Virus record (IMG/VR): IMGVR_UViG_3300022213_000011
Coordinates: 1 to 45,986 of that record
Source: a virus
Length of the DNA stretch: 45,986 bases
Reading direction: 5' to 3' (one strand)
Under the pieces are notes generated by a model, which was not told where the DNA came from, did no database searches, and worked only from the letters and a program-made list of their open reading frames with translations. This document shows positions 1 to 45,986 of this stretch, in pieces. Made by a program: the position numbers and the translations under genes. The stretch's first letter is position 1; each line of letters begins with the position of its first letter.

Positions 1-161
1 GGCATACCAAGGGGCATCCGAAGGGGCATACCAAGGGGCTACCCCAAGGGGCTACCCCAAGGGGCAGGGGTAAGGGGCAGGGGGAAGCCATAGCAGTAGC
101 AGGTGCAGTAGCAGTAGCAGTAGCAGTAGCAGGGGCAGGGACAGAGACAGAGAGACAGAGC
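1..161. repeat. Left copy of the terminal direct repeat
   Basis: Bases 1-161 repeat at 45832-45986. The copies align base for base except that this one has one extra GCAGTA hexamer (four in a row here, three at the right end). It carries part of an AAGGGGC iteron array (to about base 84), then GCAGTA and ACAGAG short repeats. The initiator reading frame is open through it, so the repeat reflects closure of a circular or permuted genome rather than a gene boundary. Confidence 0.93.
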
Positions 162-659
162 AATCGTCCTCCCACCTCGAGATCCCGGACCGCGCGCGAG
201 ACGTCGCCACCGCCTCGGGAGGATGAAGGCACAACCGCGGCGGGCGAACCCGACGAGCTCCCCGCGCTGGCGATCGCGCGCCGCAACATCGTCGCGATTC
301 ACGGAGGCACCGAGGACCCCGTCGAGATCGAGGGCCACAAGGTCGGCGTGGGCATCGAGGTCAACGCGTTCCGCGCGTTATGCGGCAAGGTCGCCGATCC
401 GCCCGACATCATCGCCCGAGCGATCGCCTACCTCCCCGAGGTCACCGGTCTCGAGCCGCCCGTCTCGCTCGCTCGATGGGCCGCGGAGGACGGGCCGGCC
501 GTGTTCGAGCAATGCCTCGCCAGGGCATACGGCGAACGGCGAGGAGCTCCCGCCGACGTCCACGTGGCCAAGATTCCGCCCGAGGACGTGAGGGTGCGCG
601 ACGCCAAGCAGCGGGCCCGCGAACAGCTCGCAGGATTGCGTCGAGCGGCCGAGGCCTGA
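1..659 (+). CDS. Replication initiator, 3' part (gene starts at 45297)
   Basis: This frame is open from base 3 through the terminal repeat to a stop at 657-659 and is in register with the gene starting at 45297. Joined across the repeat (counted once), the protein is 397 residues. This half encodes a low-complexity linker (GHTKG, GLPQG, then Ala/Val and Thr/Glu repeats) and a folded-looking C-terminal domain of about 150 residues, starting near LPALAIARRN, with no motif I recognise. A basic, Ala-rich tail ends the protein. By analogy with lambda O, a DNA-binding N-terminus, a repeat-encoded linker overlying the origin and a partner-binding C-terminus would be expected; that is inference. Any separate start here, such as GTG 348, is unlikely. 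Confidence 0.8.
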   Translation, partial: HTKGHPKGHTKGLPQGATPRGRGKGQGEAIAVAGAVAVAVAVAGAGTETERQSNRPPTSRSRTARETSPPPREDEGTTAAGEPDELPALAIARRNIVAIHGGTEDPVEIEGHKVGVGIEVNAFRALCGKVADPPDIIARAIAYLPEVTGLEPPVSLARWAAEDGPAVFEQCLARAYGERRGAPADVHVAKIPPEDVRVRDAKQRAREQLAGLRRAAEA

Positions 660-25421: not shown

Positions 25422-27344
25422 ATGAACGAGGAGGGAGTGGGCGCTCCGGGCGTTTACTATGGCTGGTCGCGCGTACCCTTCCGGGTACGCGCGTCAGCCG
25501 CCCTCATCGTCGCGACGTCCGGTCTGGCGCCGGTGCCGGAGGCTCTCGTCTCCCACCGGCGCCCGGACGTCGCGCCGACCTACGAGGCGGCGGTCCCGCG
25601 TCTCGATGTAGGCACGACGTTGAAGCACGGTCTCATGATCGCCCCGGCGTTCAGAGACCCGAGGATCGCGGCACGCGTATCCGATCGCGGCGAGAGTATC
25701 GCGACGTTCTGGATCGCGCCGTCGCCGCGGAGGCAGGTCGCACGCTTCCCGCTCGCTGTTCTCGCGGGATCTCCTCCTCAGTCGACGCCGGAGGCGCTCG
25801 TCTCGTTCCGCCGGCCGGACGTCGCACCGGCGGTTTTCGAGGTCGAGCGGCTCGCGGTCGGAACGACGCTGAAGCATGGACTTCTCATCGCGCCAACGTT
25901 CCGCGACCCGCGGCTCGTCGTCGCGGTCGCGCGCGATCGAGAGAGCCTCGCGACGCACTGGCCGCGAAGCGCGACGGTGTTCGATCGGCGACCGTTCCCG
26001 CTCGGGGCGCTCGCGGCCGCTCCGCCGGTCGCGTTCCCTTCGGCGCTCGCCGGACGGCGGACCGATGTAGCCACGGGATACTCGGTCCCGACGTTGCCGG
26101 TCGGGAGAATGGACGAGCTCCGGGTGTTGGTGTACGACGGCACCGAGCCGGCGCCATTCGTCCTAATCGCGCGGCGCCGACCCGACCTGGCGACGAAGCC
26201 GGGGCCGACGTCCTACGTCACGCAGACGCGCGAGCTCCCGCCGGCGCTGTTCGCTGCCGAGGTGCCGCCGACGCCGGCCGAGCCGGCGATCGTCGCGCAC
26301 CGTCGTGAAGACCTGGCGTTGCGTGTCCGTGCGCTCGCCTTCGCGACGCAATCCACTCGGCCGCTCCCGATCGTCGCTCCGGCGGCGCCGATCGACGAAG
26401 TGCTCGCGCGTCGCCGGCCGGACCTCGCGGTCGAGTATGCCGCGCACGTCCGCACGATGGCGGTCGGGACGACGCTCAAGAGCGGCCTGCTCATCGCCCC
26501 GATCGGATCGCCAACTGGGTCCACGCCGGTGGCGCTCCTCAAGCGGCGACCCGACGTCACGCCGCTGTACATCGTGCCGACGCTGCCGGTGCCGAAGCTC
26601 GACGAGCTCCGGGTGTTGGTTTACGACGGCACGGAGCCAGCCCCGTTTGTCCTGATCGCGCGGCGCAAGCCGGATCTGGCGACCGAGCTGAAGCCGGCGC
26701 CGTTCACGACGCGGGCGCGGGCGCTCCCGCCGGCGCTGTTCGCTGCCGAGGTGCCGCCGACGCCGGCCGAGCCGGCGATCGTCGCGCACCGACGCGAGGA
26801 TCTATCGGCGCGGTCGCGCGCGCTCGCGTTTGCGACTCAGTCGACACGGCCACTTCCGATCGTCGCGCCGGCTACCCCAGCGCAGGCGTTCTTCTCGCGG
26901 CGGCCGGACGCGGCTCTGAGCTATGTCGTACCATCACTGCCCGTGCCCGAGCTCGACGAGCTCCGGGTGCTCGTGTACGACGGGACGGAGCCGGCGCCGT
27001 TCGCGCTCATGTTCCGCCGGAAGCTCGACCGCGCGTTGCGCTGGCCGGCTCCCGAGGTGCGGACGTCCGAGCGTCCCGCGGCGACCTTCCTCGTGGCACC
27101 GGCCGCAGCGCCGACCCTCGAGCTTGCGGGGCTCGTTCGACATGAGGTATTCCGCTACGACCATGGCGATCACGGCCGACGTCAACATGCGCGTTTCCCG
27201 CTCGCTGTCCTCGCCCCGACCGTGACTACGTCCCGGCCGCCGCGGTCGCAAATGATCGACGCGACGCACCGCGCGGAGATCGGCGACGCGACGCACCGCG
27301 CAGAAATCATCGACGCGAACGACGCCGAGATCGGCGACGTCTAA
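25422..27344 (+). CDS. 640-residue repeat protein built on an RRPDxA motif
   Basis: At least eleven copies of a short box of the type RRPDVA/RRPDLA/RREDLA are spaced along the protein. Long segments also repeat: DELRVLVYDGTEPAPF three times, LPPALFAAEVPPTPAEPAIV twice, LAFATQSTRPLPIV twice and VGTTLK(H/S)GL(L/M)IAP three times. The C-terminus is a different short repeat (DATHRAEI twice, then DANDAEI). The unit of about 55 residues is rich in Pro, Ala and Arg. Its location among appendage genes suggests an elongated virion protein, but I know no family like it. The repeats are less alike at the DNA level early in the gene than between 26100 and 27000. Confidence 0.6.
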   Translation: MNEEGVGAPGVYYGWSRVPFRVRASAALIVATSGLAPVPEALVSHRRPDVAPTYEAAVPRLDVGTTLKHGLMIAPAFRDPRIAARVSDRGESIATFWIAPSPRRQVARFPLAVLAGSPPQSTPEALVSFRRPDVAPAVFEVERLAVGTTLKHGLLIAPTFRDPRLVVAVARDRESLATHWPRSATVFDRRPFPLGALAAAPPVAFPSALAGRRTDVATGYSVPTLPVGRMDELRVLVYDGTEPAPFVLIARRRPDLATKPGPTSYVTQTRELPPALFAAEVPPTPAEPAIVAHRREDLALRVRALAFATQSTRPLPIVAPAAPIDEVLARRRPDLAVEYAAHVRTMAVGTTLKSGLLIAPIGSPTGSTPVALLKRRPDVTPLYIVPTLPVPKLDELRVLVYDGTEPAPFVLIARRKPDLATELKPAPFTTRARALPPALFAAEVPPTPAEPAIVAHRREDLSARSRALAFATQSTRPLPIVAPATPAQAFFSRRPDAALSYVVPSLPVPELDELRVLVYDGTEPAPFALMFRRKLDRALRWPAPEVRTSERPAATFLVAPAAAPTLELAGLVRHEVFRYDHGDHGRRQHARFPLAVLAPTVTTSRPPRSQMIDATHRAEIGDATHRAEIIDANDAEIGDV

Positions 27345-28867: not shown

Positions 28868-29013
28868 AGTACCGCGCCGCGCTCCTCGCGGGCGCGACCT
28901 ACTGTCTCGCGTTCACGCTGTGGGGGGTAGGTGAACGGCGCCTCGATTGGCTAAATCTCGCGCTCGACTTCCTCATCCTCGCCGCGATCCTCGAGCAGAA
29001 AGGCAAGCAATGA
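28864..29013 (+). CDS. Small membrane protein
   Basis: A 49-residue protein (ATGA overlap on both sides) with two hydrophobic stretches: YRAALLAGATYCLAFTLWG and WLNLALDFLILAAIL. Tiny, coupled to the neighbours; role unknown. Confidence 0.5.
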   Translation: MKYRAALLAGATYCLAFTLWGVGERRLDWLNLALDFLILAAILEQKGKQ

Positions 29014-30446
29014 CACCCGACACGCCCGCGCGCGATCCGCGTCTCCCGTTCACGATGATCGAGGAGCGGTTCCTCGCGCCGCGCGACCCGGTCCTCGGGT
29101 TCGTGAAGATTGGCGGCAAGGACCCGCACGTCCGGTTCGCGAAGAGCGGCCGGCCGTGGGTGGCGCCCTCGAGGTACGTCGACCCGCCGCGCTTCGAGGT
29201 GACGAATCGAGAGAAGCGACTGCAGATCGTCGAGGGCCAGGGCAAGGCGAAGGGCGAGAAGTTCACGGTCGACCTTGGGTACGTCCGCGACGCGAAGTTC
29301 CACAAGGTCGTAGGCGAGAACCCGGCGGCGCTCCGGGTCCGGCTCCTCTATCCGCGGTGGCACCAGAACCTAATCGCGTTCCTCGGCGCGCACTCCGGGA
29401 CGAAGTGGATATGCCGCGGGAACGGCGTCGAGGCGGTCGACCTCGTCCGCGGGGCGTGCGCGTGTCCGTGTCCGCGGCTCAAGCAATTCGAGGGGACCTA
29501 CGAGGGGACGCCGCCGAACGATCACCTCCAAGGAGGCGCGCTCTACCCGTGCAAGCCACACGGCCAGCTCAACGTGCTCCTCGAGGACGCCGACGTGTTC
29601 GGCGGGTTCCATGCGTTCAAGACGACGAGCTTCGAGAGTATCTCCAACCTGACGAAGGCGCTCCGCATCTTCGAGGATATGTTCGGCCGCGTCGACGGGA
29701 TCCCGTTCGAGCTCCGGGTCATGGCGGCGACGAAGAGCTACGGCGAGGGCACGACCACGCAACCGATCGTAACGCTCGTGCTCCCGGCCTCGATGTCGAC
29801 CGCGCGCCAGGTCGCCGCGGACGCGGCCGCCGAGAGTCGGAAGTACCTCCCGGCCGGCGAGCTCAACGACTACCGCGAGGCGATCATCGCCGAAATGGAG
29901 ACGGAGGCCGCGAGCTACGTCGGCGAGTTCGTTCCGGAGACTCAGGACCCGGACGCGCCGACGGGGCCCGCCGCGGCGCCGGCGCCGACACCCGCGCCCG
30001 CGGCACCCGCGCGACCCGCTCGAGCTCCGACCGTGACACCCGCGCCGGCGCCCACCGCGGCCGAGGAGGAGGACGAGGGGCCCGACCACGAGCTCGCCGG
30101 CGACGACGAACCCGAGGTCGAGGCCGAGGCCTCGGCGCCGACTCCCCCGCCGGCCGATGATTCCGGCCGAAATGAAGAGGGTGCTCCCGCTCCCGCGAAC
30201 GCGGTGCCGGCGCCGGATCCGGCCTCGCCGGCGGACCGCCTCGAGGCGACGTGCCGCGCGATCCTCGAGGCCGACGGGTGGCAACCGCAACCGATCGAGG
30301 ACCGGCTCGCGCACCATCGCCGGCAAGGCCTCGAGGGGCTCCGGAAGCTCCTGGACGGGCTCAAGGTCCACCGGCCGGACGCGTGGGCGAAGGTGAACCA
30401 GGGCGGGCTCTTCGACTCGCCGCCGAACGACGGGCTCCCGTTGTGA
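29010..30446 (+). CDS. Recombination directionality factor-like metal-binding protein
   Basis: The 478-residue protein has an N-terminal domain of about 290 residues with the pattern of the Gp3-like RDF family: GFVKIGGKD..., PPRFEVTNRE, AALRVRLLYPRW, WICRGNGVEAVD, the Cys cluster GACACPCPRL, a later Cys in YPCKPHGQLNVLLEDADVFGG, then FKTTSFESISNLTKALRI and GIPFELRVMAAT. A long Pro/Ala/Glu-rich linker (about 310-420) leads to a short helical end carrying QGGLFD, a beta-clamp-like motif. RDFs switch serine integrases, but no integrase is in this genome, so another DNA-processing role is plausible. Confidence 0.65.
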   Translation: MTPDTPARDPRLPFTMIEERFLAPRDPVLGFVKIGGKDPHVRFAKSGRPWVAPSRYVDPPRFEVTNREKRLQIVEGQGKAKGEKFTVDLGYVRDAKFHKVVGENPAALRVRLLYPRWHQNLIAFLGAHSGTKWICRGNGVEAVDLVRGACACPCPRLKQFEGTYEGTPPNDHLQGGALYPCKPHGQLNVLLEDADVFGGFHAFKTTSFESISNLTKALRIFEDMFGRVDGIPFELRVMAATKSYGEGTTTQPIVTLVLPASMSTARQVAADAAAESRKYLPAGELNDYREAIIAEMETEAASYVGEFVPETQDPDAPTGPAAAPAPTPAPAAPARPARAPTVTPAPAPTAAEEEDEGPDHELAGDDEPEVEAEASAPTPPPADDSGRNEEGAPAPANAVPAPDPASPADRLEATCRAILEADGWQPQPIEDRLAHHRRQGLEGLRKLLDGLKVHRPDAWAKVNQGGLFDSPPNDGLPL

Positions 30447-37495: not shown

Positions 37496-37680
37496 CGCGC
37501 GCCGAGCAGGTCGCGCTCCTCGAGCGGCGGATCGCCGAGTCGGGCCTCTCGGCCCGGCGGTTCGCTGTCGAAGTGCTCACGCGCGACGAACGCACGATCC
37601 GCCGGTGGCTCGCCGGCGACCAGATACCGCAGGTCGTTCTCGACTTCCTCGAGGACCCGCAACCCGCCCCGTGGCCGTGA
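37483..37680 (+). CDS. Small HTH regulator
   Basis: A 65-residue protein from GTG 37483, overlapping the previous gene by 13 bases. AEQVALLERRIAESGLSARR and the following FAVEVLTRDERTIRRWLAGD form a Cro/XRE-type helix-turn-helix with a recognition helix DERTIRRWLAG. It lies 23 bases before module B and is a natural candidate to bind the GTGA-N5-TCAC operators; that is inference. Confidence 0.62.
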   Translation: MGSLTRAEQVALLERRIAESGLSARRFAVEVLTRDERTIRRWLAGDQIPQVVLDFLEDPQPAPWP

Positions 37681-37702
37681 CACCCGGGACCCGCCGGGGG
37701 CC

Positions 37703-37762
37703 TTGCGCGCCCGTGATAGATTCACCATCATACCTCCACGGCCCGGGCAATCCCGCCCGGCC
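37703..37762 (+). promoter_or_regulatory. Regulatory module copy B
   Basis: TTGCGC (37703-37708), 17 bases, CATCAT (37726-37731). The dyad here reads GTGA-TAGAT-TCAC (37713-37725), with a changed centre but identical arms to copy A. The leader hairpin (37740-37762) is identical. ATG 37780 follows. Confidence 0.8.
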
Positions 37763-37779
37763 GAACAGAGGGGCAGAAC

Positions 37780-38124
37780 ATGGCGACCTTCCGGATCTAC
37801 TACTCGCGGCCCGAAGCTTTCCGGGACCTTTCGCTCGGGTTCGAGTTCGCGGCGAAGTACGGCGTGACGGTCACGGCGGCGACGCTCGATCGCACGCACG
37901 TCTTTCTCCGCGAGATCGAGGCGGCCGACCTCCACGAGGTCTACCGCGTGTCGCAGGGCGAGATTTGGAGTCCGAACGGCGAGGCGCGCGAGCTCATCCG
38001 CTCCAAGGGCCTCGCGCACACGTCGATGTCCGTCGGCGACGTGATCGTCGACGCGGCCGGCGTCGCGCACATGGTCGAAATGGTGGGCTTTCTTCCCCTC
38101 CCGGCTCGGGAGGGCGCGCTGTGA
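37780..38124 (+). CDS. Conserved phage/plasmid protein of unknown function
   Basis: The 114-residue protein contains THVFLREIEAADLHEVYRVS, QGEIWSPNGEARELIRSKGL and HTSMSVGDVIVDAAG, wording I associate with a widespread uncharacterised family of phages and plasmids. It is likely a small alpha/beta protein. Its GTG/TGA junction couples it to the TGT-like gene, which may indicate joint function. Confidence 0.65.
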   Translation: MATFRIYYSRPEAFRDLSLGFEFAAKYGVTVTAATLDRTHVFLREIEAADLHEVYRVSQGEIWSPNGEARELIRSKGLAHTSMSVGDVIVDAAGVAHMVEMVGFLPLPAREGAL

Positions 38125-38849
38125 TCTACCTCGTCGGCGAAATGTCGAACGGCTCGGCGAAGCTCGCCGACACCTACCCGCGCGGGATCGGCCGGTGCTA
38201 CGTCGAGCGCCCGCTCGAGCCGTTCCCGGGCGAGCCGTGGATCCTCGACAACGGCGTTTTCCGCGCGTGGAACGCCGCGGGCCGCGACCCTTCGATCGAC
38301 TACGCGGACTGCTACGCCGCGTTCGAGGCGCGCCTCGAGAACGTCGCCGAGCTCGTCCGCGAGGACCGCGGGCCTCTGTTCGTCGTCGTGCCGGATCGGC
38401 CCGCGGACCCGTCCTCGTTCTGGACGTCGCTCGCGTGGCTCGACGACTACGAGCAGGAGCGCCAGGAAGAGCTCGATCCGAGCGGGTGGTACCACGGCGC
38501 GCGCATGATCCCGCTTTTCCTCGCGGTGCAGAACGGCATGACGCCGGAGCTCCTCGAGGCGGAGCGGTGCGCCGAGACGGACCGCCCGCTCCTCGAGCGG
38601 GTCGACGGGCTCTTCCTCGGCGGCACGGACGAGTTCAAGGCCGACACGCTCGACGCGTGGCGCGAGCTCGCCGACCGCCACGGCCTCCGGTTGCACTTCG
38701 GCCGGTGCACTCAGAGCAGGATCGCCGCGGCGCTCGAGGCCGGATGCGACTCCGCCGACTCCTCGCACCCGAACCGCCTCGGCGGCGAGCGGTGGGCCCG
38801 GTTCCTCGAGGCCTTCGACGCGGTCCAGGCCGCCAGGTCCGTCGCGTGA
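38121..38849 (+). CDS. TGT/DpdA-like TIM-barrel protein, possible base-exchange enzyme
   Basis: The 242-residue protein shows, in order, motifs matching tRNA-guanine transglycosylases: ILDNGVFRAW (compare DSGGF), LFVVVPDRP, PLFLAVQNGM (compare IVQGG), GLFLGGTDEFK (compare GGL), and LHFGRCTQSRIAAALEAGCD followed by SADSS. Phage DpdA proteins of this superfamily exchange guanine in DNA for a 7-deazaguanine. The protein is shorter than bacterial TGT (about 370). No FolE, QueD, QueE or QueC genes are present, so the base would come from the host. Start GTG 38121 overlaps the upstream stop. Confidence 0.6.
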   Translation: MIYLVGEMSNGSAKLADTYPRGIGRCYVERPLEPFPGEPWILDNGVFRAWNAAGRDPSIDYADCYAAFEARLENVAELVREDRGPLFVVVPDRPADPSSFWTSLAWLDDYEQERQEELDPSGWYHGARMIPLFLAVQNGMTPELLEAERCAETDRPLLERVDGLFLGGTDEFKADTLDAWRELADRHGLRLHFGRCTQSRIAAALEAGCDSADSSHPNRLGGERWARFLEAFDAVQAARSVA

Positions 38850-39225: not shown

Positions 39226-39987
39226 ATGGCCGCCCGCCTCGCGACGTCCTACCGCGTCGAGAAAACCGCGCGCCCGGTCCACGACCGGGTCGCGCGGGCC
39301 GCGACCACCGAGTCGCACCTCACGGGCCTCCCGCTGGCGGACGTCCTCCTCGAGCGCGAGCGGGTGGCGCGCCTCGAGGAGCTACCGCCCCGGGAGTCGG
39401 CCGGGAGCCTTGCGCGCACAGTGATAGATTCACCATTATACCTCGCGGCCCGGGCAATCCCGCCCGGCCGAACGAAGGGGGAAAAGATGGCGAAGCAACC
39501 CGAGCGGTTCGCGGTGGTCTACCGGACGGGCGGGACGGCGCGGTTCAAGTGGAACCGCCTCTTCCGGGACTTCACCACGCGCGAGGTCGCGGACGCGGCG
39601 AAGGCCGAGCTCGAGCGCCAGGGCTACGCGGCCCACGTGCACGACGCCGCCCTCCTGGACGCGATAGGCCTCCCCGAGACGTACGGCGGGGGGGTCGGCC
39701 TCGAGGGCGTCCGGATCTACAACCGCGGCGACGTGGCCAACCACCCGCACTTCGGTATCGTCACGAAGGACGACGGCCAGAACGTGTGGGTCCAGGTCGA
39801 CTTCGACGCCGAGGACGAGGCGCCGGGCGAGACGTACGCGGTCGCGCGCTCCATGGTGGAGCACGTCGACGACGGGTACGCCCGGATCGTCACCGTTGCC
39901 GCCTACCTCGAGCGCCGCGAGCGCCGCGAGCGCCGCACCGCGGACATCGCGCGCCGGAAGGCGCTCGAGACCGGGAGGGGCGCTTGA
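39226..39987 (+). CDS. Readthrough frame: small ORF fused in frame through module D to the next gene
   Basis: ATG 39226 starts a frame (ARLATSYRVEKTARPVHDRV, LADVLLERERVARLEEL) that meets no stop before module D. It is translated through the promoter DNA (VIDSPLYLAARAIPPGR) and continues into the gene at 39487, giving a possible 253-residue fusion. The start repeats the TGACCATGG junction of 37187. Either the original stop was lost, or two products are made: a long one from upstream transcripts and a short one from module D. Confidence 0.5.
   Translation: MAARLATSYRVEKTARPVHDRVARAATTESHLTGLPLADVLLERERVARLEELPPRESAGSLARTVIDSPLYLAARAIPPGRTKGEKMAKQPERFAVVYRTGGTARFKWNRLFRDFTTREVADAAKAELERQGYAAHVHDAALLDAIGLPETYGGGVGLEGVRIYNRGDVANHPHFGIVTKDDGQNVWVQVDFDAEDEAPGETYAVARSMVEHVDDGYARIVTVAAYLERRERRERRTADIARRKALETGRGA
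39410..39471 (+). promoter_or_regulatory. Regulatory module copy D, inside an open frame
   Basis: TTGCGC (39410-39415), an 18-base spacer (one longer than other copies), CATTAT (39434-39439). Dyad GTGA-TAGAT-TCAC at 39421-39433 as in copy B. The hairpin GGCCCGGGC/GCCCGGCC follows (about 39447-39469). ATG 39487 is its gene start. Confidence 0.78.
39487..39987 (+). CDS. Hypothetical protein under module D
   Basis: The 166-residue product (RFAVVYRTGGTARFKWNRLF, AAKAELERQGYAAHVHDAAL, then GVRIYNRGDVANHPHFGIVT and QVDFDAEDEAPGET) resembles widespread phage small proteins that begin RFAVVYRTGGT, of unknown role. The ending is very basic (ERRERRERRTADIARRKA). A GGGGGAAAAG ribosome site precedes ATG 39487, supporting independent translation. 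Confidence 0.65.
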   Translation: MAKQPERFAVVYRTGGTARFKWNRLFRDFTTREVADAAKAELERQGYAAHVHDAALLDAIGLPETYGGGVGLEGVRIYNRGDVANHPHFGIVTKDDGQNVWVQVDFDAEDEAPGETYAVARSMVEHVDDGYARIVTVAAYLERRERRERRTADIARRKALETGRGA

Positions 39988-40379
39988 GCTCCGAGGCCTA
40001 CCGCGACCACGCCGGTCGCACGACCCCGCCGAGCTCGTGGGGGCCCGGGCTCGCCTACCTCGGCAACCTCGGCCGCGGCCGCGTGTGCACCGATCACCGC
40101 GGCGCGCGCCTCAAGGTTCTCGCGCAGAACGTCGGGAGCACGACGGTCCGGCGCTCCGGATCGGCCGCTCGCACGTTCACACGCGCGGACGGTTCGGTCG
40201 CTCAGCTCGGGCCGACGTCGGAGGAGATCACGCTCGCGCGCGGCACGGTGGTCCGCGTTCGTACTTCCACGGTCTCGTGCGCAGTATGCGCGGCCCACTA
40301 CGGCGACGCGGAGCCGTGCGACGAGGGGAAGCCGGTCAATTCGCCGCACCGGGCCACGGTTTCCTTGGGGGCGGCATGA
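39984..40379 (+). CDS. Hypothetical Cys-containing protein upstream of the Mom-like gene
   Basis: A 131-residue protein from TTG 39984 (four-base overlap). The C-terminal part has TVSCAVCAAHYGDAEPCDEG with three Cys (C-x2-C...C). Beta-rich middle (VGSTTVRRSGSAARTFTRAD, TLARGTVVRVRTST-type text). Its TGA overlaps the ATG of the Mom-like gene. In Mu a small zinc protein, Com, is coupled to mom; similarity here is positional only. Confidence 0.55.
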   Translation: MSSEAYRDHAGRTTPPSSWGPGLAYLGNLGRGRVCTDHRGARLKVLAQNVGSTTVRRSGSAARTFTRADGSVAQLGPTSEEITLARGTVVRVRTSTVSCAVCAAHYGDAEPCDEGKPVNSPHRATVSLGAA

Positions 40380-41167
40380 TCGGCGTGCAACGCTGGCGCG
40401 AGCGCCGCGACTCCTACCGGCCCGCCGGCGAGCGGATCCGCCCCGAGCTCTTCGACGTCGCGCCGATCTCGAGCGACCTCGTGGCGCGCGCGTTCGTCCA
40501 AGAGCACCACTACTCCGGGACCTACCCGGCCGCGCGGTTCCGCGTCGGGCTCTACCGCGGCGGCGAGCTCGTCGGCGTCGCCGTGTTCTCGCACCCGTGC
40601 AGTAACCGCGTTCTGACGAACGTGTTCACGTCCACGCCGGCGCTCGAGGCCGTGGAGCTCGGCCGGTTCGTGCTCCTCGACGAGGTCCCGGGCAACGGCG
40701 AGACGTGGTTCCTCGCGCGGGCGTTCGACCTCCTCCGCGCCGAGGGGATCCGGGGCGTAGTCTCGTTCTCGGATCCGACGCCGCGGACCAACGCCGCGGG
40801 CCGGGTCATCTTCCCGGGCCACGTCGGCACGATCTACCAGGCGCACAACGCACGATTCCTCGGCCGCGGCGACGCGCGGACGCTCAAGCTCCTCCCGGAC
40901 GGGCGCGTGTTCTCCAACCGCGCGGAACAGAAGATCCGCGCGGGCTCGCGCGGGTGGCGCTACGCGAGCGACCAGCTCGTCGCGCACGGCGCGGGCGTTC
41001 TCGAGGAGGGCGCCGACCGGGAGGCGCGCCTCGCGTGGCTCGAGCGCTGGACGGGGGCGTTGACGCGCCCGCTCCGGCACCCCGGCAACCTTCGGTACGC
41101 GTGGCCGCTCCGGAAGTCCGTGGCGCTCGCGACCGGCACCCCATACCCGAAGAGGCAAGCCGCATGA
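40376..41167 (+). CDS. Mom-like DNA modification protein (GNAT-type fold)
   Basis: The 263-residue protein carries AFVQEHHYSGTYPAARFRVG, LVGVAVFSHPCSNRVL, AVELGRFVLLDEVPGNGETW (ELGRF, then Asn/Glu-Thr), VVSFSDPTPRTNAAGRVIFP and GTIYQAHNARFLGRG. This layout matches the Mom family of acyltransferase-like phage proteins, which convert adenine to N6-carbamoylmethyladenine and protect phage DNA from restriction. ATG 40376 overlaps the upstream stop. Modification of this genome is predicted, not shown. Confidence 0.75.
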   Translation: MIGVQRWRERRDSYRPAGERIRPELFDVAPISSDLVARAFVQEHHYSGTYPAARFRVGLYRGGELVGVAVFSHPCSNRVLTNVFTSTPALEAVELGRFVLLDEVPGNGETWFLARAFDLLRAEGIRGVVSFSDPTPRTNAAGRVIFPGHVGTIYQAHNARFLGRGDARTLKLLPDGRVFSNRAEQKIRAGSRGWRYASDQLVAHGAGVLEEGADREARLAWLERWTGALTRPLRHPGNLRYAWPLRKSVALATGTPYPKRQAA

Positions 41168-43164: not shown

Positions 43165-43238
43165 AGTTCTCCGCGCGCGTTGTCGCAATCACGGCGATCG
43201 GGTGGGCGATCGCGTGGATCCTGGCGGGCGCACCATGA
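43161..43238 (+). CDS. 25-residue single-helix membrane peptide
   Basis: GTG 43161 overlaps the previous TGA and the TGA at 43236-43238 overlaps ATG 43235. Sequence KFSARVVAITAIGWAIAWIL with a short end would span the membrane once. Double coupling argues that it is translated, although it may only link the two neighbours. Confidence 0.4.
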   Translation: MKFSARVVAITAIGWAIAWILAGAP

Positions 43239-44329
43239 GCACCTCGTCGAAGATTCAGTGGACCGACGCCACGTGGAACCCAACCGTCGGGTGCTCGCCG
43301 GTCTCGGAGGGGTGCCGGAATTGCTACGCCGCGCGCGAGGCGATCCGGCTCGCCGGCAACCCGTCCCCGGCCGTCGGCGAGCTCTACGCCGGAACGTCGG
43401 ATCTCCGCGGAGCGGGTTCCGCGCGTCACGCCGTATTCACGGGAATCGTGCGCACGGCGCCGGACCGGCTCGAGGCTCCTCTTCGGTGGGGCCGGCCGCG
43501 GCGCGTGTTCGTCGACTCGATGTCTGACTTGTTCCACGAGGACGTGCCGGACGAGTACCTCGACCGCGTGTTCGCGGTTATGGCGCTGTCTCCTCGTCAC
43601 ACGTTCCAAGTGCTCACGAAGCGGCCGGAACGGATGGCCGACTACATGGACCGGCTCGGCGGCCGACTCGACGCGCTCAACGATCACGCCGCAACGTTCA
43701 TGCATTGGGACGATATGCCGACCGCGACGTTCCCGCTCGCGAACGTGTGGCTCGGCACGTCCGTCGAGAACCAAGCCGCGGCCGACGAACGGATCCCACA
43801 CCTACTGAGCACGCCGGCGGCCGTGCGGTTCCTCTCGTGCGAGCCGCTCCTCGGGCCGCTCGAGCTCCGCCAGGCGTGGCGCGACTACCTCGAGGGCTGG
43901 GACTCTGAACCGACGCACGTTTGCGGGGGAGACGAGGAGCGATGCGCCCGGCTCTGTCCCGAGGTGGAGCAATTCCAGACTCCGCGCGTCGATTGGGTGA
44001 TCGTCGGCGGCGAAAGCGGGCCCGGCGCGCGGCCGTGCGACGTCGCGTGGGTACGGTCGGTCGTCGAGCAATGCAGGAGCGCCAAGGTCCCCGCGTTCGT
44101 GAAGCAGCTTGGTCGGTGGATCACGGGGGACTACGCCGCCGGGTTCTCGGGCCTCGATCGATGGCTTCTCGAGGATGGGGCGGTATTCGTTCCGCCGATC
44201 ATCGGACCGCACACGCACACGCGACCGCGCGACGCGATCGCGTTCTCGATCGGACGCAAGGCCGGAGACCCGGAGGATTGGCCGGCGGACCTCCGCGTCC
44301 GCGAGTTTCCCGAGGAGGTGACACCATGA
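43235..44329 (+). CDS. Gp37/Gp68-family (DUF5131) three-Cys-motif protein
   Basis: The 364-residue protein has IQWTDATWNPTVGCSPVSEG then CRNCYA (C-x5-C-x2-C), VFVDSMSDLFHEDVPDEYLD, FQVLTKRPERMADY, NVWLGTSVENQAAADERIPH, RFLSCEPLLGPL and WVIVGGESGPGARPCDVAWV, all hallmarks of the phage Gp37/Gp68 family. The Cys triad and overall layout suggest a radical-SAM-like Fe-S enzyme; its reaction is not known. The partner protein often found with this family is not seen nearby. Confidence 0.88.
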   Translation: MSTSSKIQWTDATWNPTVGCSPVSEGCRNCYAAREAIRLAGNPSPAVGELYAGTSDLRGAGSARHAVFTGIVRTAPDRLEAPLRWGRPRRVFVDSMSDLFHEDVPDEYLDRVFAVMALSPRHTFQVLTKRPERMADYMDRLGGRLDALNDHAATFMHWDDMPTATFPLANVWLGTSVENQAAADERIPHLLSTPAAVRFLSCEPLLGPLELRQAWRDYLEGWDSEPTHVCGGDEERCARLCPEVEQFQTPRVDWVIVGGESGPGARPCDVAWVRSVVEQCRSAKVPAFVKQLGRWITGDYAAGFSGLDRWLLEDGAVFVPPIIGPHTHTRPRDAIAFSIGRKAGDPEDWPADLRVREFPEEVTP

Positions 44330-44646: not shown

Positions 44647-44874
44647 ATGTCGAAGCAAGTCGGCCGGATCCGTGGCACCGTGAAGTGGTTCAACGCCGAG
44701 AAGGGCTACGGGTTCCTAACGCGCGACGACGGCCAAAAGGACGTGTTCTGTCACTTCTCCGCGATCGAGGCGCAGGGGTTTAGGAAGCTCGAGGACGGGC
44801 AACGCGTGGAGTTCGACGTCGTCACCGGGACGAAGGGCCCGGCCGCGGAAAGGGTCGTGGTCGTCGATGCCTGA
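44647..44874 (+). CDS. Cold-shock domain protein
   Basis: The 75-residue protein has [34 protein letters not shown] and a final [15 protein letters not shown]1 (KGYGFL) and RNP2 (VFCHF) of CspA-type single-stranded nucleic-acid binders. An AGGAG ribosome site (about 44631-44635) precedes ATG 44647. It may melt RNA or single-stranded DNA near the adjacent origin, or act as an antiterminator. Confidence 0.9.
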
Positions 44875-45296: not shown

Positions 45297-45986
45297 ATGT
45301 CGCGCGGGCGCGTCGCTGTCGCGCACCGGCGACGCTTCAACGGAGACCCGGAGAACGTGAGCAAAGGCACCCGCACATATCGACGGATCGCGACGACGTT
45401 TTGGAACGATCCAGACCTCCGCCGGCGAGGGATCACAGGGGACCAACGGCTCCTCCTCCTGTACTACTTCACGGGCCCGCGGACGAACCTCGCGGGGCTC
45501 TATTGGCTCCCGCTCACGTACGCCGCCCAAGAGACCGACCTACCCCTCGAGGACGTCCGGCGGTGGACCCTCGGCGAGCTCGCGCCGTACGTGTCCTACG
45601 ACGTCGAGACCGAGGAGATCCTCGTCCACCGGCTCGCGTTTCACAACATCGGCGACGACCTCAAGGCGCGCGACAAACGACTCCAACCGATCGCGCGGAA
45701 CCTCTCCGACGCACACTCCGCGGAGCTCCTCGCGAAGTGGTTCGAGCTCTACCCGGCGTGGCCGATCGACCCCGAGACTATGGCGCCAATCCTCGATCCT
45801 GAAGGGGCAGGGGTAAGGGGCAGGGGTAAGGGGCATACCAAGGGGCATCCGAAGGGGCATACCAAGGGGCTACCCCAAGGGGCTACCCCAAGGGGCAGGG
45901 GTAAGGGGCAGGGGGAAGCCATAGCAGTAGCAGGTGCAGTAGCAGTAGCAGTAGCAGGGGCAGGGACAGAGACAGAGAGACAGAGC
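45297..45986 (+). CDS. Replication initiator, 5' part (continues at base 1 to 659)
   Basis: From ATG 45297 the protein has a helical winged-helix-like N-terminal domain: RTYRRIATTFWNDPDLRRRG, GDQRLLLLYYFTGPRTNLAG, LYWLPLTYAAQETDLPLEDV. This is the pattern of phage replisome organisers and DnaD-like initiators. VSYDVETEEILVHRLAFHNI follows. At about residue 168 the frame enters the iteron array and becomes Gly/Lys/Arg-rich. It stays open to the window end and, after removing the repeated 155 bases, continues to 659 (397 residues in all). No helicase or primase gene accompanies it, so it probably recruits host replication proteins. Confidence 0.85.
   Translation, partial: MSRGRVAVAHRRRFNGDPENVSKGTRTYRRIATTFWNDPDLRRRGITGDQRLLLLYYFTGPRTNLAGLYWLPLTYAAQETDLPLEDVRRWTLGELAPYVSYDVETEEILVHRLAFHNIGDDLKARDKRLQPIARNLSDAHSAELLAKWFELYPAWPIDPETMAPILDPEGAGVRGRGKGHTKGHPKGHTKGLPQGATPRGRGKGQGEAIAVAGAVAVAVAGAGTETERQS
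45802..45915 (+). repeat. Nine iterons inside the initiator gene, candidate origin
   Basis: Nine units of 12 or 13 bases begin with AAGGGGC: AAGGGGCAGGGGT twice, AAGGGGCATACC, AAGGGGCATCCG, AAGGGGCATACC, AAGGGGCTACCCC twice, AAGGGGCAGGGGT and AAGGGGCAGGGGG. Because 13 is not a multiple of three, the peptide changes from unit to unit while the DNA unit is kept, which points to selection on DNA. Lambda has its origin iterons inside gene O in the same way. Seven of the units are also visible in whole or part at bases 1-84. Confidence 0.75.
45832..45986. repeat. Right copy of the terminal direct repeat
   Basis: Matches 1-161 with one GCAGTA hexamer fewer. It covers iterons 3-9, the GCAGTA repeats and the ACAGAG repeats. 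Together with the continuous reading frame this shows that the contig closes on itself. Confidence 0.93.

Follow-up and report, generated by a model that had tools for sequence, protein, structure and literature searches.

Where does a phage start to replicate its genome, when the only conspicuous row of short repeats near its putative initiator gene lies inside that gene? This question is raised by the window, i.e. the whole stretch of 45,986 nucleotides analysed here (IMG/VR virus record IMGVR_UViG_3300022213_000011), for which a previous reading of the sequence alone (the sequence-only reading) had placed the replication origin at iterons within the initiator gene. Comparative sequence evidence supports that proposal, which is the best supported of the readings considered below, and we propose that positions 45802-45986, comprising intragenic iterons and an unwinding tract, are very probably the replication origin of this phage.

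The initiator gene and the contig ends

The following features, all on the plus strand, define the gene:

45357-45986, plus strand: 5' portion of the initiator gene (the frame stays open up to the contig end; N-terminal homology)
3-659, plus strand: 3' part of the initiator gene (the bases to 161 are contig-end overlap; the joined frame is stop-free until its end)
1-161, plus strand: the last iterons and the tract, read a second time (contig-end overlap, with one extra TAGCAG copy)
45372-45752, plus strand: codons of the N-terminal domain (residues 26-152 of the protein P0001), a predicted winged helix (PHROG 1701; AlphaFold2)

The initiator gene spans the contig ends because positions 1-161 repeat positions 45832-45986 (155 of 161 identical, with one 6-bp gap in the TAGCAG tract). 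One in-frame 6-bp repeat copy is the sole difference between the two end readings, and the array visible at 9-78 is that of 45802-45909 read again across the overlapping ends. Joined across these ends, the two parts form a single gene of 374 sense codons with no internal stop, the start codon of which is presumably the GTG at 45357, as suggested by the alignment with relatives and by an upstream GGAG, ATG 45297 being the alternative. The record closes on itself by this overlap, yet it is classed as linear. An exact-match circularity test would miss a circle whose overlapping ends differ by a 6-bp repeat copy.

The linear classification, together with a contig that ends within the array and carries the array at both ends, would also agree with the repeated 155-161 bp being true terminal repeats, or the packaging site, of a linear genome. 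We regard this as very unlikely, knowing that the gene is complete only after joining the ends, that the relatives hold the array mid-contig and that assembly usually breaks contigs at a repeat with two alleles.

Residues 26-145 of P0001 match positions 2-119 of the 323-position profile of PHROG 1701 (DnaD-like helicase loader; E 5.6e-18), the term helicase loader being the name given in the database annotation, and the C-terminal two thirds of that profile are unmatched by P0001. The protein also matches PHROG 6251 (replisome organizer), more weakly than PHROG 1701, and a Pfam search at E up to 1 returned no convincing match. AlphaFold2, run with 14 sequences, predicts the N-terminal domain to be a winged helix (mean pLDDT 85.5), in which residues 52-59 and 63-71 form helices and residues 78-81 and 86-89 form strands. 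Following the convention for winged helices, we take helix 3 (residues 63-71) to be the recognition helix. Comparison of this domain with solved structures returned generic winged helices only, and the lack of a DnaD or lambda O match in such fold searches carries no evidential weight.

As regards the surroundings, the gene next to the initiator matches a tail/neck family (Pfam and PHROG), while a cold-shock domain protein (44647-44871) and a DUF5131 gene (43202-44329) lie upstream of the initiator. Elsewhere in the window, a recombination directionality factor-like match (28947-30446; PF18897, E 1.3e-17) hints at a temperate phage. Furthermore, DNA modification genes may be present at 37605-38849 / 39896-41167, where a tRNA-guanine transglycosylase match (PF01702, weak and below the cut-off) lies close to one of the Mom family (PF25680, E 2.5e-23).

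The iteron array in the window and in its relatives

The proposed origin consists of two adjoining parts:

45802-45909, plus strand: iteron array of nine AAGGGGC cores (exact matches, repeat analysis, shuffles)
45916-45986, plus strand: purine-rich triplet tract of TAGCAG and ACAGAG repeats, the proposed unwinding region

The cores start at 45802, 45815, 45828, 45840, 45852, 45864, 45877, 45890 and 45903 (exact matches), with spacings of 13, 13, 12, 12, 12, 13, 13 and 13 bp, which confirms the nine units of 12-13 bp that had been reported inside the putative initiator gene. Their codon phases are 1, 2, 0, 0, 0, 0, 1, 2 and 0, so that all three phases are used. The 12-bp units encode a four-residue protein repeat (KGHT KGHP KGHT KGLP), which the 13-bp units disrupt; both phases and translation bear out the earlier statement that the mixed unit length breaks the protein repeat and keeps the DNA repeat. 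AAGGGGC occurs 16 times in the whole window versus 4.29 expected (SD 1.99), a count of 16 or more being reached in 0 of 100 shuffles. Finding one 7-mer nine times within 114 bp is also out of the ordinary, in that dinucleotide shuffles (n = 20) give at most five copies and any 7-mer elsewhere in the window at most four per 114 bp (the second array reading at 9-78 set aside).

Using tblastn, we found homologues in 19 phage records. Ten of the 11 homologue regions inspected were annotated, with products including DNA replication protein O, and most of the inspected regions adjoin repressor-type genes and DnaC-type or primase-helicase genes. When viral_contigs was searched with single proteins, i.e. 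the two domains from the window, no relatives emerged, and a scan for closer relatives with the window and L123 returned the L123 contig alone. The set of relatives comprises 112 homologues (E up to 1e-5) falling into 31 clusters at 75% domain identity, some of which were found through the DNA pattern and 20 by protein alone. Homologues also came from further genomes (8/369 and 4/385). L305 is a fragment, and L307-L309 look like phosphatase fusions without arrays; these resemble membrane phosphatases, with a weak match to the domain profile at their N-terminal ends.

At least two AAGGGGC or GCCCCTT cores (up to one mismatch) lie downstream of the domain in 27 of the 31 clusters, and the other four (L010, L011, L014 and L015) have repeats of a different sequence at the array site. 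Relatives lacking repeats at this site, which the sequence-only reading had named as speaking against it, were thus not encountered among the 31 clusters. AAGGGGC-type chains (up to one mismatch) occur just past the domain in 16 of the 20 clusters found by protein alone, whereas only 44 of the 1644 segments of 300 bp taken as controls from the same loci contain one, a comparison in which the clusters are mutually related and the p-values overstate their independence. The cores of the relatives occupy all three codon phases, and they lie on either strand of the gene.

The numerous GGGG runs on the window's coding strand could suggest that the array works through G-quadruplexes formed by its G-rich strand. 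This account is very improbable: the core is inverted at the same place in L115, L118, L123 and L128, which shows that the G-rich strand is not fixed, and the spacing of one helical turn fits binding to double-stranded DNA.

When the DNA pattern alone was scanned, three cores were found at 11-bp spacing in 18 viral loci and at 12-13 bp in 19 loci. The cores lie in an initiator frame in 13/18 and 5/19 of these, i.e. 18/37 loci (17/37 when the profile used was the first one, to which none of these loci had contributed), the 18 initiator-bearing loci not being independent and forming about eleven groups (L098 was too weak to cluster). The reversed pattern, a control that covers the 12-13 bp spacing only and not that of 11 bp, occurred in 45 loci, with an initiator frame in 0/45. 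In bacterial genome contigs (genome_contigs) at least 116 pattern stretches were found, with an initiator frame in three of the 116 listed, which suggests that chromosomal repeats of this type are for the most part of another nature and that tandem AAGGGGC repeats do not by themselves mark an origin. By eye, AAGGGGC arrays were also seen in replication-like genes without a profile match (L099, L100, L117, L132 and L126), with a purine triplet tract again following the array in L099 and L117/L132; the core may be shared by other types of initiators. Two Shewanella loci (L232 and L249) have long 11-bp AAGGGGC arrays with no initiator match nearby.

The adjoining tract and the recognition-helix codons

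The low-complexity tract of GCAGTA/ACAGAG repeats that had been described after the array is indeed present, as simple repeats at 45916-45986. It had been called the longest low-complexity stretch of the genome; in TRF, another array of the window (27257-27339) scores as high. The best 60 bp of the tract rank in the top 0.026% of the window for purines and in the top 0.24% for low duplex stability. With about 55% GC, the tract cannot be called AT-rich as such. Over 27 clusters, the tract as compared with the rest of the gene is richer in purines (0.71 vs 0.53), more periodic (0.62 vs 0.31 for the match at period 3/6) and poorer in GC (0.50 vs 0.57). The exceptions are L219, which has an array without a tract, L128 (pyrimidine-rich), L118 (aperiodic), and both L097 and L108 (no purine enrichment). 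Of the same 27 clusters, 15 have the A-phase of the tract in codon frame 1, seven have it in frame 2 and five in frame 0. Near-identical tract DNA encodes QE, GT, GA, SS or AV across the relatives; for instance, CAGGAACAGGAA is translated as QEQE in L005 and L009, and as GTGT in L017 and L111, and TAGCAGTAGCAG as AVAV in the window and SSSS in L123. It is the DNA, not the protein, that appears to be conserved at the array and the tract.

These data bear on the possibility that the repeats simply encode a protein linker of low complexity, which slippage has lengthened, the DNA itself being without function. The region is linker-like in the protein, and the contig ends differ by one 6-bp copy, such that the repeat number may vary. 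Nevertheless, the relatives read the same DNA in different frames, the DNA pattern is tied to the initiator family while its reversed control is not, and the helix-3 codons of the relatives are restricted to one codon choice (see below), which makes slippage alone quite improbable as an explanation.

In many relatives, extra cores occur upstream, in the codons corresponding by alignment to helix 3 of the predicted fold. An EGASKGL-like motif, whose helix-3 codons are iterons, was found in 19 of 30 relative clusters, the codons GAA GGG GCT TCG AAG GGG CTT making up two iterons. In these 19 clusters the motif glycine is encoded by GGG in 35/35 cases versus 45/167 for the glycines elsewhere in the same domains, a difference whose p-value is too small owing to the relatedness of the clusters, the codon choice being nonetheless uniform. 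Helix 3, rather than any other part of the domain, has the longest DNA stretch in common with the downstream region in 21 of 31 clusters, although L014 and L123 owe this to a non-iteron word, in all likelihood shared by chance, and L007 fails this test despite having cores. A cruder 6-mer test, which left out L297, L298, L305 and L307-L309, favoured helix 3 in 11 of 38, many rows having picked the tract or chance words; it is mainly the codon use that carries the helix-3 reading. An altered word, CGAAAGGGTT, is present in both the helix-3 codons and the downstream repeats of L015, and a co-change of the ACGGTT type was seen by eye in L306. No helix-3 copy was seen in the window, nor in L010, L011, L018, L108, L115, L118, L128 and L219; L300-L304 keep a QE-type tract, again with no helix-3 copy seen. 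Arrays may be longer where the helix copy is missing (median 5.5 units, vs 3 where it is present), but this apparent trend, based on hand-entered counts, is biased in that the 12-13 bp clusters were found with a pattern requiring three units.

From these observations we tentatively suggest that, in this phage family, the recognition helix of the initiator may be encoded by its own binding site. A change in specificity and a change in the site could then arise within a single stretch of DNA and subsequently spread to the downstream array, the window's lineage having no helix copy and, instead, a longer downstream array.

The second core pair, upstream in the gene of the relatives, spreads the sites over the gene, as might be expected of an operator for the initiator's own gene or of a partition site, with the origin located elsewhere. 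This is unlikely, since the array lies deep within the gene and not at a promoter, the adjoining tract fits an unwinding region, and the window has no second comparable array. GC skew was uninformative either way, its detrended range being reached by 75.5% of block shuffles.

Comparison with known origins and proposed mechanism

In phage lambda, the iterons of ori-lambda lie inside the initiator gene O, between the parts encoding two domains, and are followed by an easily opened region, as described in PMC5043065 and PMC7466680. The sequence-only reading had invoked lambda O, and the analogy holds for the layout: in the window, the repeats lie inside the initiator gene and adjoin a region of lower stability, in the same order as in lambda and phi80, and, as in lambda and phi80 gp15, the region proposed to open is purine-rich on the coding strand. 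It does not extend to detectable ancestry, in that lambda O gave an hhalign probability of 1.6 against the N-terminal domain and was unreported by hmmsearch at E up to 100, and phi80 gp15 scored only 5.2 bits against this domain. The window and its relatives also differ from lambda by their 7-bp core at 11-13 bp, versus 18-bp iterons at 20-24 bp, and no DnaC-type loader was found beside the window's initiator. We infer that the origin would work like lambda O/ori, a likeness of operation rather than an established kinship with lambda O.

A similar arrangement occurs in the pSK41 Rep protein (RepA_N), which has a winged-helix N-terminal domain of DnaD-like structure and an origin central in rep (PMC5703833); the window has a predicted winged-helix N-terminal domain and a putative origin inside the initiator gene. 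The RepA_N domain was absent among the Pfam matches to P0001 (E up to 1). The N-terminal domain resembles 4pql_B (Z 6.0, 85 aligned) and 5kbj_C (Z 5.9, 84 aligned), which we take to be RepA_N domains, in a tie with many winged helices, the structural likeness being only at the common winged-helix level.

The temperate-phage family of PHROG 1701 has homologues of the N-terminal domain, most of which share the AAGGGGC core and the tract. Most members have two to four downstream cores at 11 bp in addition to the recognition-helix cores, whereas those of the window number nine, spaced 12-13 bp, and its helix codons contain no core. The tract also recalls the DnaA-trio of bacterial oriC (motif 3'-(G/A)AT-5', PMC10797057), as a triplet-periodic tract beside double-strand binding sites, putative in the window. 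There TAG, which fits this motif, alternates with CAG, and other relatives have CAG/GAA; only some triplets fit, and the window's initiator is not DnaA-like. A BstA/aba self-immunity element was considered and rejected, the BstA/aba repeats being CCCGCC.

By analogy with these systems, we propose that subunits of the initiator would line up on the array through their N-terminal domains, the AAGGGGC cores following one another at roughly one helical turn, and that the resulting strain would open the adjacent tract. The C-terminal part would recruit the host replicative helicase, a role assigned to it because the searches of this record revealed no DnaB (DnaB_C) or DnaC/IstB-type gene. The origin DNA can sit where it does because the protein segment that links the two domains tolerates changes of sequence.

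An origin inside an initiator gene is of a known kind. What appears to be new is the shared core, the frame-independent tract and, in relatives, the overlap with helix 3; no account of AAGGGGC iterons or of this overlap was found in the literature searched, which covered few subscription papers. These features would provide a sequence-level way to locate origins in a widespread phage family, and they would describe an origin whose DNA is kept across all three reading frames. If true, the helix-3 overlap would offer a testable coupling between the recognition helix of a protein and the DNA that it recognises.
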